Shown here: in pieces, positions 6,045-32,581 of the stretch
Position numbering within the stretch: the stretch's first letter is position 1
Layout: every line of letters starts with the position of its first letter
Origin: a virus
Strand: one strand, 5' to 3'
Length of the DNA: 41,618 nt
IMG/VR virus record: IMGVR_UViG_3300033388_004708
Location: 1 to 41,618 of that record
Translations under genes and position numbers: made by a program
The notes under the pieces: generated by a model
Told to the model about the DNA's origin: nothing
Database searches by the model: none
Seen by the model: the letters and a program-made list of their open reading frames with translations, nothing else

Positions 6045-9000
6045 CCTTTCTCTTGATTGCTTTGCTCGATATTGAGTTGATAGATCTTTGATCATATCAT
6101 TTTTCTGTCGGGCAGGCATGGTTGATTTTCTAGCCTCTTTGAGAATATCCTTAAGATCCTTATCCCCGTCTAAAATATCCTGCTCAAACTCAGTCTTAAT
6201 AGATCCTATTTTTTTCCAAATTCCTGCTCTACCTTCATTGATAGTTTTATAATCCTTATATGTATTTGGATAAGTGAAACCTATAAATTGTTTTGCTAAA
6301 GGCATTTCAGAGAGGAATTTTGTAGAATCTTCCTGAGCATCTTTTGTTAGTCCTTCGGTATAAATCCCTGCAAGAGTAGAAAAAGGATTACTAGCATGGA
6401 TCTCTCGAAGACCTTTTCTTAAAGCTTCGGGATGCAGACCAGTTAGATTCCCTAGATTCTTATAAAACTCAGGTGTGTCAGGCTTAAACCGCCTCGGTTT
6501 TTCAGCTTCGTTAACATAAGCTAAAAGAGCTTCAACCACCGGTGCACCCTCTCCAAGAAGAGGAACCTGTTCAGCAACAGCTTTAAACTGTTCTCCTAGA
6601 TCCACATCAGTATCTTTATCATAAATCCCTAACATAACGTCAGTAGCACTATTAGCGAGAGCTACGATACTACCGGTCAAAGGGGAGTTCTCTTGTTTTA
6701 ATTTAATATGAGGATATATCTTATTCCCCTCTTCATTCCTCATCCCTCCAGGAAGACAAAATAACCAATTATTAAGTTTCTGCCTTGCACTAAAAGCTTG
6801 ATAACATTCTGGATTAGTATAATAATTCATTAAATTCAGCGCAGTAACAGCAGTAACCAATTGAACAACCTTACCACCCATTACTTTAGGATTCTTTACA
6901 CCGGCCGTTATAAGACCGTCAATAGCCTGAACAGCAGGATTTAGGAAAGGAAGGAAAGAATTCATAATCCCTCCTGTTGTACCTGATCGACGAAAATTCA
7001 AAGCCCTATTAGTCTCACCTACTCCAATATCCCATGCTTTCTTCCAAGCAACAGGAGCTTTTTTAAGTTCTTTGAGAGACTTGAAACCTAAATCCTTTCC
7101 CACACTCTCAGCCTTCGTAGCTGCATTGTGAACCCTAAGACTGATTTCCATGTAATTATTAAAGGTATTCAGTTTATCTAAAGCTCTTTGATAGGATTTA
7201 CCGATGGTACTTTTTAATCTTGTCTTTCCAGCAGCCCTCTCAAGAGGCTCTAATTTAATAGCATCTCTGGTATAGGTATAAAAGCTCCCTCTGCTGTCTG
7301 CATAGGCATTAATCTTATCCCCTCCTGTTGCGGTATCTTTTAAGGTCCGAACAACCTCAAGCATCCTATGAGGACGGAAGAGGGCTTTTTCTCTGGTATT
7401 ATTTAATGTCCAAAAAAGTATATCTCTCGGAGCACTTTTCAAACCAAAAATAGGGTTAGCTGTAATAGCTGTTCCCCTAATAGCCGAAGTAGCACTAACA
7501 ATAGGAAGAAAAGTTTTCAATAAGGTAGCAGCCTCATACTGAGTAGCTTCCAAAGCTTCTGCAACTTCTGAGGAAACCCAAACCTTTTTCCTATCCCCAT
7601 TCTGTACAAATGAATATTCCTTATAAGCTTCGTAAGGAACTGTTTCTTTACCCGCCCTCTTAGCAGCTTTGATCTGTTTCCTTCCTGATTTACCTATAGG
7701 CTTATTCCTTAAAACCATAGCTTGATTAGGATTCTTAGTAGCAAAACTTCCAAGGGCAATCCCTGTTTCATGTTTTGCTTGGATATATTCCATACGGTTA
7801 TAAAAATTTCTTAATAAAAGTTCAGGATTAGTATTAGCACGCAAAAAATTGATGGAATGTCCAATAGTGTTAACTGGATCACCCGCAAGGATGTTTTTTT
7901 CATATAATTTATCTCCTGTCATATTAAGATCTTTTTCAAACTTCGCAAGGACCTCCAAGGGTGCCCATCTACGACCACGAAGGATTTTATATTGCTGCTT
8001 ACTCATAATACCAGCATTAAGAAGTTCAATTTTCTTTCCTTCAAAAATATCGAAAAACTTATTTGAGTAGTTAATAATCTCTTGTAAATAAGGTTGCTTA
8101 GATGCTTCCCGACGATAGAAACTTAAAATCTTAACCTGATCCGCTACTTGATCAGCAGGGATTTTTCCAGGTTTATATATCTCATGTTCTTGCCCTAAGA
8201 CAGCCGACATATATTTTTCAATATCATTAAGCTTTTTTCCGGTTAATTTCTTTTCAGGATCGATATATTTCCAGGCCCTTCTAACCTTAACGTCAGCAAG
8301 ATCAGAGGTATTATATTGCCCTGCCCTAAGATTTGTAACCTCCTCGTTTACAAGAACTTCTAACCGTTTCCCCTCTCCAACAAGTTGTTTTCTTGCGCCC
8401 CAAAATAATTCCTTAACTCCCTGAAGAGTTTTTGTCTTTTTCTGCTTTTCATAAAAGCTAAGTTCTTGTTCTGCTTTTGCTTTGATTGCTTTGTCGCCCT
8501 TCTTGAGAGCAATACTTTCTTCGCTAGTAATACCAGCTTTGTTTCCATCAGGTAATTTATGGGATTTAGGTTTAATATCTGCTTCACGAGCTTTGTAAAT
8601 TTGATCCAATTTTCTTTGGGTAATATCAAAAGCTTGTTTAGCTATTTGGGCTTTCCGGAAAATAGGACCCGCAAGGATTTTTGCATTTTGTTCTTTGATA
8701 CCGTTTCTTGTAAGGTGTTGTACGAATACATCCTTGAGTTGGTTATTTGTGAGAGTGTCAAGATTTCTAAATTCCTTCTCACCTAACCAACTTTTTACAA
8801 GATCAACAGTAGGATTCTTCTTTGGCGATCCTAAAACATCACGAGGAATAATCTTCTCTAACTCTCTGACATTTGAGTATTCTTTTGAAATTCCTTTTCC
8901 TGCAAATTTAGTAGCTTTAGCATCTACAGCAGGACCTAGGCGAGCAGAAGGTTTCCGGAGACTTGAGAATGAAGAGCCTAGAATGATGCTTGCCCACATT

Positions 9001-26776: not shown

Positions 26777-27268
26777 CTACCCCTTATTTTGATTTTGGAT
26801 TTGTATAAAAATATTCCTGGCGTGATCTTCAGTTGTCTCAGGAGGCCCAGAGTTGAGTTCTCCTGTTCTTTGATAGAGTAATCTCACTGCCGCTAACCTA
26901 TCTGATGTTTTCTCCCCTCTCTCCATACTATCCCCCAATACCTCATGACTCTTTCGTCTCAACCCCTCAAGACCAAAAACGAAATCATCTTTCTCTTTTG
27001 TGATAATCTCTAACGCGGCGGGCTTCTGTAAAATAGCCTTAATCGTAGGAGGGGTGACTCCGATTTCCCTGGATATTTCAGCAAAAGTCTCGCCGCTTAA
27101 GAACATCTCTACTATTTCTAATTCCTTTAGGTGTAACCCATCCCCTAAGACCTTTGTAGGGTCCTCTATAAGGATTGTATTCTTACCTATCTCCCCGTCT
27201 GTTACGATCTTTGTTAAGACCTTGAGAGGAAGGGGAAGTAGGATTCCTTGGCTTTCTATCGAGATCAT
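26777..27268 (-). CDS. terS: Terminase small subunit
   Basis: A 163-aa protein with a central helix-turn-helix (VEMFLSGETFAEISREIGV then PTIKAILQ, about residues 52-80) and a helical C-terminal region with RLAAVRLLYQRTGEL. This is the usual form of small terminase subunits, which bind the packaging site and hand it to the large subunit. It is the second or third gene of the virion operon. The ATG at 27268 is the first start after an in-frame TAG and has only a weak GGA ribosome site. The first 29 codons overlap a 53-aa frame described separately. Confidence 0.75.
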   Translation of the reverse strand: MISIESQGILLPLPLKVLTKIVTDGEIGKNTILIEDPTKVLGDGLHLKELEIVEMFLSGETFAEISREIGVTPPTIKAILQKPAALEIITKEKDDFVFGLEGLRRKSHEVLGDSMERGEKTSDRLAAVRLLYQRTGELNSGPPETTEDHARNIFIQIQNQNKG

Positions 27269-27352: not shown

Positions 27353-27562
27353 TTATTTACTAAAACCTGTTATCCAATATTCCTCGGTTGTTTCACTTTG
27401 AGCATATTTAATAGCTATTTTTTCATTTGTTACTGTATCTTGCCAAGCAGTATTAACTAATAGGTTACTCTCATCTACTAAACTATCCTTTATGCCTATA
27501 CAGGTATTATATCTGTGTTTCCAAAGCCAATCGTCCAAAGCTTTTTTATTTACGATAATCAT
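27353..27562 (-). CDS. First gene of the virion operon, unknown
   Basis: A 69-aa protein next to the control region. GGGG is positioned seven bases before the ATG, and a strong leftward promoter lies 32 bases further upstream. It is moderately charged, with DDWLWKHRY near the start and no recognised motif. Its position suggests it is the first protein of the late leftward transcript. Confidence 0.6.
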   Translation of the reverse strand: MIIVNKKALDDWLWKHRYNTCIGIKDSLVDESNLLVNTAWQDTVTNEKIAIKYAQSETTEEYWITGFSK

Positions 27563-27593
27563 AATTGATCCCCTTTTTTATCTATATATCCTA

Positions 27594-27623
27594 TATATAA
27601 CAGTCCCCTACCCTCTTTGTCAA
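27594..27623 (-). promoter_or_regulatory. Leftward sigma-70-like promoter PL1
   Basis: On the minus strand a perfect -35 TTGACA (27623-27618) is followed after 18 bases by TATATA (27599-27594). It lies 32 bases upstream of the first virion-operon gene. The elements GGTTG, AGGGT and ACTGTTAT around it recur in PL2. Confidence 0.65.
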
Positions 27624-27703
27624 CCTTAATAAGTTTGTAAAAACAATAGCACCTTTTTCCAGATTTTTGAAAAAATTCACAGATAGACCAAGAAATACGG
27701 CGG

Positions 27704-27746
27704 CGGGGGTAGGCAGGGGGGTGATGACTTTTGGGAAGGGGAGGGG
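27704..27746 (+). other. G-run cluster, possible G-quadruplex
   Basis: The plus strand has five tracts of three or more G: GGGGG, GGGGGG, then GGG, GGGG and GGGG separated by only AA and A. The spacing between the second and third tracts is 11 bases, so a quadruplex with one long loop is possible. It marks the left edge of the polypurine tract. Confidence 0.45.
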
Positions 27747-27960
27747 AGAAAGGAAAAGGCCAACCACCCAACCAACCAACCACCTACCAGGTTGGGAGAG
27801 GGAAAAGGGCAAGAGAAGGGGGAAATACACACATATATAAGGAGAAGAGACAAGAAGGAGAGAAGAAAGGAGAGAATTGAGAGGTAAAGAGGGCTGAGTA
27901 GGCCGAGGATGAGAGATAAGAGGAGCTAGGTATGGTAAGAAGGAAAGGGAAAGAGATTGA
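27747..27960 (+). other. Polypurine-biased tract
   Basis: Apart from the CCAACC cluster at 27760-27789, the plus strand here is dominated by A and G, with repeated GGAGA, AGAAGG and GAGAGG units. Minus-strand frames across it (to 28019) read as Leu/Pro/Ser low complexity. No gene is supported. Such asymmetry can favour triplex or strand-separation structures. Confidence 0.55.
27760..27795. repeat. CCAACC cluster with facing GGTTGG (repeat unit 1)
   Basis: CCAACC occurs at 27760, 27768, 27772 and 27776, followed by GGTTGG at 27790. The last pair forms a six-base stem with an eight-base loop. This is the densest copy of the repeat family. Confidence 0.8.
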
Positions 27961-28131
27961 AACCTTGTCTCCTTAAGAAAGATCCATCTGTAAACCTCCT
28001 CCTTCCCCCTTCTAAACACCTCTTTTTAAAACGGTAAAGGTCTTTTTCCCTACTTTAAGCTTTCAAAAAAAGACGTGGAACGTTAATAATAAAGGTTAAT
28101 AATTGTGTTACTCTTTATTATTCTTGCATTC

Positions 28132-28160
28132 CTTATAGATAACAGTACCCTAAAGCCCAA
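28132..28160 (-). promoter_or_regulatory. Leftward promoter candidate PL2
   Basis: On the minus strand TTGGGC (28160-28155) lies 17 bases before TATAAG (28137-28132). The GGTTGGG of repeat unit 2 forms the -35 region. GGTTG, AGGGT and ACTGTTAT occur in the same order as in PL1. Confidence 0.5.
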
Positions 28161-28184
28161 CCAACTTTGTGGTTGTCTGGTTGG
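28157..28184. repeat. CCAACC/GGTTGG inverted repeat (unit 2)
   Basis: CCAACC at 28157-28162 pairs with GGTTGG at 28179-28184, with a 16-base loop. A further lone GGTTGG lies at 28214-28219. Confidence 0.75.
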
Positions 28185-28314
28185 AAGGGGGGTCCTCTCC
28201 CCACCTCCTAAATGGTTGGAAAGAAGAGAGAAAGAAGAATAAGAGATAATATACTTTATATATAAAAATATATATTAATTAAAAACACCCCTTACACACT
28301 TTACCACTAAACAA

Positions 28315-28327
28315 CCAACCAGGTTGG
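28315..28327. repeat. CCAACC/GGTTGG near-palindrome (unit 3)
   Basis: CCAACC (28315-28320), a single A, then GGTTGG (28322-28327). The one-base centre means it acts as a palindromic protein site rather than an RNA hairpin. Confidence 0.75.
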
Positions 28328-28349
28328 ACCCTGGGACATGGGGGGTCTA

Positions 28350-28377
28350 CCAACCACCCTACCACAAACATGGTTGG
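28350..28377. repeat. CCAACCA/TGGTTGG inverted repeat (unit 4)
   Basis: CCAACCA (28350-28356) pairs with TGGTTGG (28371-28377) around a 14-base loop. Its right arm occupies the -35 region of promoter PR1, so it could be an operator. Confidence 0.75.
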
Positions 28378-28398
28378 GACGGAAGATACTGATATAAT
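28370..28398 (+). promoter_or_regulatory. Rightward extended -10 promoter candidate PR1
   Basis: A perfect extended -10, TGATATAAT, ends at 28398 with TATAAT at 28393-28398. The -35 region (28370-28375) is poor and overlaps GGTTGG. The downstream gene is 340 bases away, so a long leader would be made. Confidence 0.5.
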
Positions 28399-28411
28399 AG
28401 AAGAACCCAAC

Positions 28412-28450
28412 AATAATAATCTTGAACACAATTATTATTAATTATTATTA
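28412..28450. repeat. AT-rich inverted repeat, possible unwinding element
   Basis: AATAATAAT (28412-28420) pairs perfectly with ATTATTATT (28431-28439), and a second ATTATTATTA follows at 28441. A similar AT-only stretch lies at 28256-28280. Directly beside the CCAACC repeats, this resembles the DNA-unwinding part of an origin. Confidence 0.55.
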
Positions 28451-28544
28451 ACATTACCGGCAAAAATAAAATAGTTTAAATATTCTAAAAAACCCTTATA
28501 ATGGTGAGATATCCCTTCCCTACTTTTGAGATAGAGACAAATTC

Positions 28545-28594
28545 GTCGAGAAAAACGTAAATTGTCGAGGAAAAGCTACGATCTGGTCGAGAAA
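28545..28594 (+). repeat. Three GTCGAG direct repeats
   Basis: GTCGAG followed by A-rich sequence (GTCGAGRAAA) occurs at 28545, 28564 and 28586, spaced 19 and 22 bases. They lie 70-115 bases upstream of the sigma-54-like site. They could bind a regulator of the early operon. Confidence 0.6.
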
Positions 28595-28659
28595 TGAGAG
28601 GAGGAAAGGAGAGAGGAAAGAAAGTGTAAGTATATCAAGGAGATAGAGAGTGTAATCCG

Positions 28660-28675
28660 TGGCACGGTTTTCGCT
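28660..28675 (+). promoter_or_regulatory. Sigma-54-like -24/-12 element
   Basis: TGGCACG, four bases, then TCGCT. It differs at one position from the sigma-54 consensus TGGCACG-N4-TTGCW and keeps the essential GG and GC at the exact spacing. It is 67 bases before the first early gene. An AT-rich TATATATAAG follows it and could instead be a sigma-70 -10. Confidence 0.4.
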
Positions 28676-28741
28676 ACTATATATATAAGAGGTAAAAACC
28701 ATCGAACTAACTAAACTATAACCCTATCTAGGAGTAGAACC

Positions 28742-30322: not shown

Positions 30323-30508
30323 ATGAAACAAAACTACTCAACCTATATGGAAAATTTCCTTCTTCAACAATCAATGAAGTCAGCTATCCAACCAGACGAA
30401 ACGTGTCAAGATTGCGGTGTTCATATGGATATCGAAGGAGATTATTGCTCAACTTGTGTGGTTGAAATGGAAAAGAAGTATGAAAATTATTCTAAGGAGA
30501 CAAAATGA
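30323..30508 (+). CDS. Small two-CxxC zinc-ribbon protein
   Basis: A 61-aa protein with CQDC (residues 28-31) and CSTC (43-46), separated by 11 residues, the classic zinc-ribbon spacing. The helical N-terminus holds many Gln and Met residues. The C-terminal KETK overlaps the ribosome site of the next gene. Zinc ribbons of this type commonly bind nucleic acid or protein partners. The fold is likely; the role is unknown. Confidence 0.7.
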   Translation: MKQNYSTYMENFLLQQSMKSAIQPDETCQDCGVHMDIEGDYCSTCVVEMEKKYENYSKETK

Positions 30509-30783
30509 AAGTTAGAAATATGACCTCATCAAGAGGAAACAAAGTAGCGAATCAATTTGAGATTACTGACGATAAAGGAGATGTTTATTTTCAATCCTAT
30601 AAGTCAGTTATTGCTAGAAAAACTTTTATTCGAGGCCCTCGTGTTCAAATCCTTCTTGATAAAAAATATTGGGACTACTCAGTCACTACCGGAAAATATC
30701 GAAATCAATTCCTTGGTGAGACGAAAAAAGAAACCCAAGCAAAGATTGACTCCGGTGAGTATATTTTAACTAATCTTAATTAG
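30505..30783 (+). CDS. Early protein, unknown
   Basis: A 92-aa basic beta-rich protein (VANQFEITDDKGDVYFQSY, then KTFIRGPRVQILLDKKYWDYS), with a C-terminal helix containing ETKKETQAKIDSGEY. It starts after AAGGAG with a four-base overlap. It resembles small phage proteins of the type found near replication genes. No family recognised. Confidence 0.65.
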   Translation: MKVRNMTSSRGNKVANQFEITDDKGDVYFQSYKSVIARKTFIRGPRVQILLDKKYWDYSVTTGKYRNQFLGETKKETQAKIDSGEYILTNLN

Positions 30784-32194: not shown

Positions 32195-32391
32195 GCGAAA
32201 AGAAAATAGTCCTAGATCCTAATAGTCCTTTTAAAGGTCTGGAAAGAGTCAAAGCCAGAATAGAAAGCCTGGAAAGTACTATCGACTTTTACCGTAAAAT
32301 GGTAGTTGAGTATAAAGATATTGTAGATACTCAGGATAAAATCATAAAAACCTACGAGGATACCTATGGAAAACTTATCAACAAAGGATAA
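32191..32391 (+). CDS. Small coiled-coil protein, unknown
   Basis: A 66-aa protein with GAGGAGG upstream. Residues 17-60 form one continuous charged helix with heptad-like spacing (RVKARIESLESTIDFYRKMV...), suggesting a dimeric coiled coil. The last 26 bases overlap the next gene. Function unknown. Confidence 0.6.
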   Translation: MSEKKIVLDPNSPFKGLERVKARIESLESTIDFYRKMVVEYKDIVDTQDKIIKTYEDTYGKLINKG

Positions 32392-32581
32392 ACTTAGGGA
32401 GGAAGTAGAAAGAGAAACGGAAAAGTTTCTATCCCAAGGAGGAGAAATTAGTAAAGCTCCTCCTCAAGAGGCCCCGGCTATTTTTGAATCTTGTGATCGT
32501 TTATTACTTTCTGACGATCTTCAAGCGGAGAAATTAGATACTATTTTAAATATTCTTGTTATAGAGAATTGTATTGATTAA
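32366..32581 (+). CDS. Small acidic helical protein, unknown
   Basis: A 71-aa protein with many Glu and Asp, starting inside the previous gene with GAGG upstream. No motif. Confidence 0.55.
   Translation: MENLSTKDKLREEVERETEKFLSQGGEISKAPPQEAPAIFESCDRLLLSDDLQAEKLDTILNILVIENCID

Follow-up and report, generated by a model that had tools for sequence, protein, structure and literature searches.

A divergent noncoding region separates the terminase and early modules

The window, by which we mean the whole 41,618-nucleotide stretch of DNA that was analyzed (IMG/VR record IMGVR_UViG_3300033388_004708), holds a complete circular phage genome of 41,504 bp plus a 114-bp overlap of its ends, and the polA reading frame crosses the circle joint. 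According to the ORF map, terminase and structural genes run leftward from position 27562, and early and replication genes run rightward from 28742. The cumulative GC-skew minimum of the genome (27660) falls inside the noncoding region between them. This region and the genes that bear on its function are as follows.

27563-28741, no strand: divergent noncoding control region, 1.18 kb, separating the terminase/structural module (left) from the early/replication module (right)
26777-27268, minus strand: helix-turn-helix (HTH) protein, 163 aa, beside terL, with weak HTH profile matches and an HTH followed by helices
1825-3024, plus strand: DUF3987/primase-type protein, a marker of the replication module and a candidate partner of an origin

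The HTH protein gene lies one small gene away from the divergent region and probably encodes the small terminase, an identity that we infer; its AlphaFold2 model is of low confidence (pLDDT 47). Profile matches of the primase alignment to solved structures involved repeat proteins, with no single stretch passing alone, and were judged to be artefacts. ORFs within the divergent region carry no coding signal (−0.02 to −0.08 bits per codon), and the two that cover repeats (27559-27783 and 27591-28019) were for that reason dropped as genes. The plus strand at 27801-28000 is strongly purine-rich (85% purine at 27801-27900), likewise without coding signal.

The host is probably bacterial, because a TTGACA-18-TATATA promoter is present at 27594-27623 and a SutA-domain protein is encoded at 32366-32581. 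The latter, a 71-aa protein on the plus strand, matches the SutA RNA-polymerase-binding domain (Pfam PF20661, E 2.8e-8) and is a possible phage modulator of host RNA polymerase. The sequence TATATATA occurs in the genome only within the divergent region (27592, 28257, 28678 and 28680); its reading as an archaeal TATA box was dropped in view of the same promoter and SutA-domain protein.

CCAACC and GGTTGG copies are concentrated in the divergent region beyond chance

On the plus strand, CCAACC occurs seven times (27760, 27768, 27772, 27776, 28157, 28315 and 28350) and GGTTGG five times (27790, 28179, 28214, 28322 and 28372) within 27760-28377, every position being as an earlier note on this DNA had given it. 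The copies form four facing pairs, 27776/27790, 28157/28179, 28315/28322 and 28350/28372, with 8, 16, 1 and 16 bases between them, respectively; the first three loops were reported correctly before, and the fourth, given as 14, is 16. With seven-base arms (CCAACCA/TGGTTGG), both long pairs have 14-base loops. Four of the CCAACC copies form one 22-bp tandem array of (CCAA) type (27760-27781), and there are therefore about nine independent occurrences, all in a single genome, on which the motif evidence is based.

The claim that this density exceeds chance held both in dinucleotide shuffles and in motif-agnostic tests. Among 2,000 dinucleotide shuffles of 27563-28741, the hexamer reached a mean of 0.70 copies (maximum 4) against the 12 observed, and facing pairs a mean of 0.0035 (maximum 1) against four. 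The motif-agnostic tests allow for a motif chosen after the fact: CCAACC, the commonest hexamer with 12 copies, was compared with the best hexamer of each of 200 shuffles (mean 6.1, maximum 9), and the largest number of facing pairs for any hexamer, four, with a maximum of two in 500 shuffles. The 16 copies outside the divergent region are near chance (whole-genome expectation 12.4), and facing pairs with loops of up to 30 bases are absent from the rest of the genome; equal density elsewhere, the outcome named beforehand as counting against the claim, is thus not what the genome contains.

No close relative of the phage was detected by TerL, primase and MCP scans of IMG/VR, which used exact peptide words and whose negative outcome is not proof of absence, by a TerL scan of GTDB genomes or by a DNA search against phage records. 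Nor was a CCAACC cluster detected in other viruses, consensus-site scans of IMG/VR giving zero matches. A looser repeat-pattern scan was discarded, its matches being chance pairs, one of them terminator-like (in locus L007). As far as these searches reached, the CCAACC motif and its cluster are new with the present phage, and the kind of element is already known.

Two mirrored sites flank an AT-rich core

The copies are arranged in four sites and one unpaired half-site, together with two AT-rich elements.

27760-27795, no strand: site S1, tandem CCAACC (27760, 27768, 27772, 27776) facing GGTTGG at 27790-27795
28157-28184, plus strand: site S2, CCAACCA-N14-TGGTTGG, with core TTTGTGGT
28214-28219, minus strand: unpaired half-site GGTTGG
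28246-28285, no strand: AT core, 97.5% A+T, TATATATA-AAAA-TATATATT, centre 28265.5, the 40-bp segment with the highest A+T content in the region
28315-28327, no strand: site S4, CCAACC-A-GGTTGG
28350-28377, minus strand: site S3, CCAACCA-N14-TGGTTGG, with core TTTGTGGT on the minus strand
28156-28378, no strand: dyad, arms 28156-28187 and 28347-28378, 26 of 32 columns complementary, centre 28267.0
28392-28491, no strand: 100 bp immediately next to S3, with the lowest GC (18%) and the lowest stability in the genome

Three 28-bp segments, S2, S3 and the part of S1 at 27768-27795, share CCAACC-N16-GGTTGG and an inner core, TNNGTGGTNG, which is on the plus strand in S2 and on the minus strand in S1 and S3, so that the S1 segment has the S2/S3 geometry with its core in minus orientation. 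Since the core is in plus orientation in S2 and in minus orientation in S3, S3 is an inverted copy of S2, a feature absent from the earlier note. Their midpoint at 28267.0 ranks first among inverted-repeat centres in the region and is offset by 1.5 bp from the middle of the AT core, in which 39 of 40 bases are A or T, although for the best 24-column inverted repeat the value in the window was reached by one of 25 shuffles. The AT core is a candidate DNA-unwinding element. Positions 28224 and 28430 are among the 60-bp GC minima of the genome, and AATTATTATT is repeated 2.2 times at 28430-28451, within the least stable 100 bp.

In the two long pairs, S2 and S3, the centres of the arms are separated by 22 bp, roughly two helical turns, a half-site geometry that is typical of protein-binding sites. 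In the broadest terms, the repeats are very probably double-stranded binding sites for a phage protein. We predict more tentatively, and at a little under even confidence, that they are the sites at which an initiator protein would bind a dyad-symmetric replication origin. This reading ranks first, followed by operators and then by packaging.

The repeat sites lie away from the best promoter candidates

Two sigma70-like promoter candidates lie at the outer sides of the repeats.

27594-27623, minus strand: TTGACA-18-TATATA, toward the leftward operon, consensus match only
28475-28502, plus strand: TTTAAA-16-TATAAT, toward the early genes, consensus match only

These best candidates lie ~100 to 140 bp beyond the outermost repeat sites and overlap none of them. 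The earlier description of pairs flanking AT-rich DNA and promoters therefore stands in its first part, the most AT-rich DNA of the genome adjoining the sites, and is not supported in its second. In lambda-type control, dyad operators overlap the −35 and −10 elements of divergent promoters, an arrangement not found here, and classical promoter-occluding operators are accordingly less likely. A phage regulator might still use the repeats as operators or activator sites and, through DNA looping or activation from a distance, switch the divergent promoters, early on the right and late on the left; we give this an appreciable but clearly minority chance. The location of the repeats where early and late modules diverge, with sigma70-like promoter candidates on both outer sides, and the paired half-sites two helical turns apart, would suit such a regulator, as would the best sigma54-like site of the genome (11/12) before the first early gene, sigma54-type promoters being ones that use distant upstream sites. 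Against it, the best promoter candidates are free of repeat sites, and the S2/S3 mirror is centred on the AT core and not on a promoter. No recognizable regulator gene was found adjoining the repeats.

The sigma54-type match itself, TGGCACGGTTTTCGCT, is at 28660-28675 on the plus strand. Three GTCGAG direct repeats (28545, 28564 and 28586, with spacings of 19 and 22 bp; window 28545-28591, plus strand) sit 70 to 115 bp upstream of it, and only five further copies occur elsewhere. A search for intrinsic terminators (stem-loop plus T run) gave only two weak matches, at S4 on the minus strand, a number equal to that in shuffles (1.7).

An AT-centred dyad recurs in phages sharing replication genes

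The records nearest by DUF3987 primase (22 to 30% identical) and polA are those of the Desulfofustis phage, Microcystis phage Mel-JY34, Caudoviricetes sp. vir526, MW202489, Kuura and the PaP2 group, all with the same bipartite early/late layout. A motif-free dyad test, which asks if the AT minimum (the AT-richest point) coincides with the centre of an inverted repeat and uses block shuffles that preserve the local AT profile, was applied to the divergent regions, whose limits in the relatives were set by hand from annotation. It gave p = 0.013 for the window, 0.007 for vir526, 0.003 for Mel-JY34 and 0.013 for MW202489, and 0.106 for Kuura, 0.31 for the Desulfofustis phage and 0.87 for PaP2; the inverted repeat thus recurs in three of the six phages tested with the DUF3987-primase/polA module. 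With the window left out as the source of the idea, the Fisher combined p ranged from 0.0001 to 0.024 over six parameter settings. As a calibration of the null, the test was run on 315 random segments from these genomes, of which 7 (2.2%) had p < 0.02. Among relatives by terminase only, two of seven loci (L141 and L160) also passed, and given this and the hand-set limits, the link to the replication module is suggestive and not exclusive.

The repeat motif differs by phage, being AATGCA in vir526, AACTGCC in Kuura and CAAGGT in PaP2, as expected for lineage-specific initiators; the design, and not the motif, recurs in distant relatives. In vir526, which is assigned to Methanomicrobiales and has primase and exonuclease in common with the present phage, inverted AATGCA copies are centred at 908.5 on the most AT-rich stretch of that genome, with TATATATA runs, although the motif is unrelated and larger outer inverted repeats (69 nt) are present. 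The Jamesmcgillvirus phages PaP2, PaMx41, TF17 and Neko also have a repeat-rich noncoding region between early and terminase modules, but the motif, spacing and orientation pattern differ, PaP2 fails the strict dyad test and the primase is only 22% identical. All seven CAAGGT copies are kept in the four phages, with spacing within the array changed in Neko. In the PaP2 record (L133), they are at 43649-43695 and 198-226, four in plus and then three in minus orientation, around AT-rich DNA at the record ends.

The equivalent region of phage Kuura holds the reported packaging end

Caulobacter phage Kuura has a 606-bp direct terminal repeat reported from PhageTerm (PMC9959647). The sequence confirms an exact repeat of 606 bp, which according to the annotation is located in the divergent region that precedes the small terminase. 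As in the present phage, oppositely oriented repeats, here AACTGCC, flank an AT tract between early genes and small terminase; unlike it, Kuura is a GC-rich genome whose divergent region is known to hold the packaging end. The terminal repeat starts at 43208, between two AACTGCC groups of opposite orientation, so that one region may hold both origin and packaging end.

Distant TerL relatives, found by a TerL alignment scan (27 to 31% identical), have other motifs, and many have noncoding gaps of 0.8 to 2 kb upstream of terL that are full of their own short repeats (GGGATAC in L158 and L160, CCTAAGG in L141). In L166, five 73-bp tandem units with AGACATGTCT palindromes (6696-6997) occupy a 2-kb noncoding gap directly upstream of terL.

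That the repeats serve packaging, with the small terminase binding them and the genome end being cut in the divergent region, is, like the operator reading, a live rival with a minority chance, slightly the smaller of the two. It draws on the terminal repeat of Kuura, which shares polA and primase and has AACTGCC around the repeat start, on the repeat-rich divergent gaps directly upstream of terL in the distant TerL relatives, and on the probable small terminase (26777-27268) encoded just to the left. However, the AT-centred dyad is clearest in phages with shared replication genes, and because the assembly is circular (114-bp overlap, polA over the joint), physical ends are not readable from it.

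Folding of the repeats as single strands

Local folds equal those of shuffles (z −1.26 to 0.43) with no Rfam match, and a hairpin or RNA reading was dropped. When the whole of 28140-28400 is folded as a single strand, it is more stable than its shuffles (z = −3.75), an effect of the mirrored S2 and S3 pairing with each other. None of the sites is in a stretch downstream of the best promoter candidates, which together with the unremarkable hairpins favors a function at the DNA level. Two-tetrad G-quadruplex patterns are also concentrated here, 27699-28363 containing six of the seven G-rich matches of the genome and 10 of the 12 C-rich (overlapping) ones. Nucleic-acid structures formed by GGTTGG runs on one strand, whether two-tetrad G-quadruplexes or hairpins, could draw on this concentration and on the S2-S3 pairing; they are nevertheless very unlikely to be what the repeats are for, local hairpins being no better than shuffles, perfect arms reaching only 6 to 8 bp, and the motifs of phages with the same layout (AATGCA, CAAGGT) not being G-quadruplex formers. 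Least probable of all is that the repeats have no function and arose through tandem slippage in a G/C-rich noncoding stretch of low complexity, for although the S1 array is a microsatellite-like (CCAA) repeat and purine- and G-rich tracts adjoin, facing pairs outnumber those in every shuffle of the region, and S2 and S3 mirror each other with a common core that extends beyond the arms.

A predicted replication origin with a lineage-specific recognition motif

Returning to the origin, the present region would work like a dyad-symmetric viral or phage origin, with putative binding sites in inverted orientation on either side of AT-rich DNA (the two centres being 28267.0 and 28265.5, p = 0.013). 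This reading is also favored by the genome-wide AT minimum beside S3 and the skew minimum in the region, although the latter is also explained by divergent transcription. Also against an origin, the strict dyad test is failed by two of the phages with shared replication genes (PaP2 and the Desulfofustis phage), L141 and L160 pass with a terminase relation only, and the equivalent region in Kuura is a packaging terminus. Pfam and PHROG searches found no initiator among the neighboring proteins, many of which are orphans, and a literature search found no mapped origin for PaP2-like phages with DUF3987 primase and polA.

Iteron-type plasmid and phage origins have clustered short repeats beside AT-rich unwinding DNA, and iterons are mostly direct repeats of ~17 to 22 bp next to a rep gene, often with a DnaA box. 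The present region resembles them in its AT-rich elements beside the repeats, namely the AT core between S2 and S4/S3 and 28392-28491. It differs in having 6- to 7-bp half-sites of mixed orientation and irregular spacing, direct only in the S1 array. Matches to the DnaA box all had one mismatch (four within the region, compared with 100 genome-wide) and were no better than chance, and no linked rep gene was recognized. For these reasons it is not classified as an iteron origin. Of the earlier proposal that the repeats resemble iterons or operators, the AT-rich neighbor and the binding-site geometry are retained, whereas iteron-length direct repeats, a DnaA box and overlap with the best promoter candidates were not found.

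We infer protein binding, the identity of the bound protein as an initiator and origin function from sequence. In the mechanism that we propose, the initiator would bind S2, S3 and S4 (and S1) cooperatively and bend or strain the DNA between the sites; the AT core, or the adjacent AT-rich 28392-28491, would then open, and the DUF3987-type primase/helicase and the polA-family polymerase would load at the opened DNA. The prediction is position specific, placing the origin at 28246-28285 between two mirror 28-bp sites, with matching predictions in vir526, Mel-JY34 and Kuura (43141-43165 in the last), and it is directly testable, since Kuura is a cultivated phage. If it is true, a conserved origin layout coexists with a rapidly replaced recognition motif, and the repeat sites could serve as bait DNA for initiator proteins. 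A wider proposal, which we regard as speculative and doubtful, is that this phage group keeps one origin layout, an AT core amid inverted repeats in the early/late divergent region, and replaces the recognition motif in each lineage. An exchangeable initiator-motif pair would then act on a fixed dyad, origin and terminus would lie in one element (the packaging end is there in at least one member), and CCAACC would be the recognition word of the present phage.

Small conserved proteins of the early module

Two small early-module proteins on the plus strand have recognizable homologs. The 92-aa early protein at 30505-30783 belongs to phrog_21575 and is unusually conserved, being ~49 to 72% identical in Pelagibacter podophages, Proteus phage PM 93, vir526 and at least 80 IMG/VR loci. 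These loci have no other tested protein in common with the present phage, and the scan with this protein, which gave the 80 loci, yielded no closer relative of the divergent region. The 63-aa protein at 30121-30312 matches DUF7736 (Pfam E 7.7e-18) and phrog_13999 and is a conserved small phage protein.
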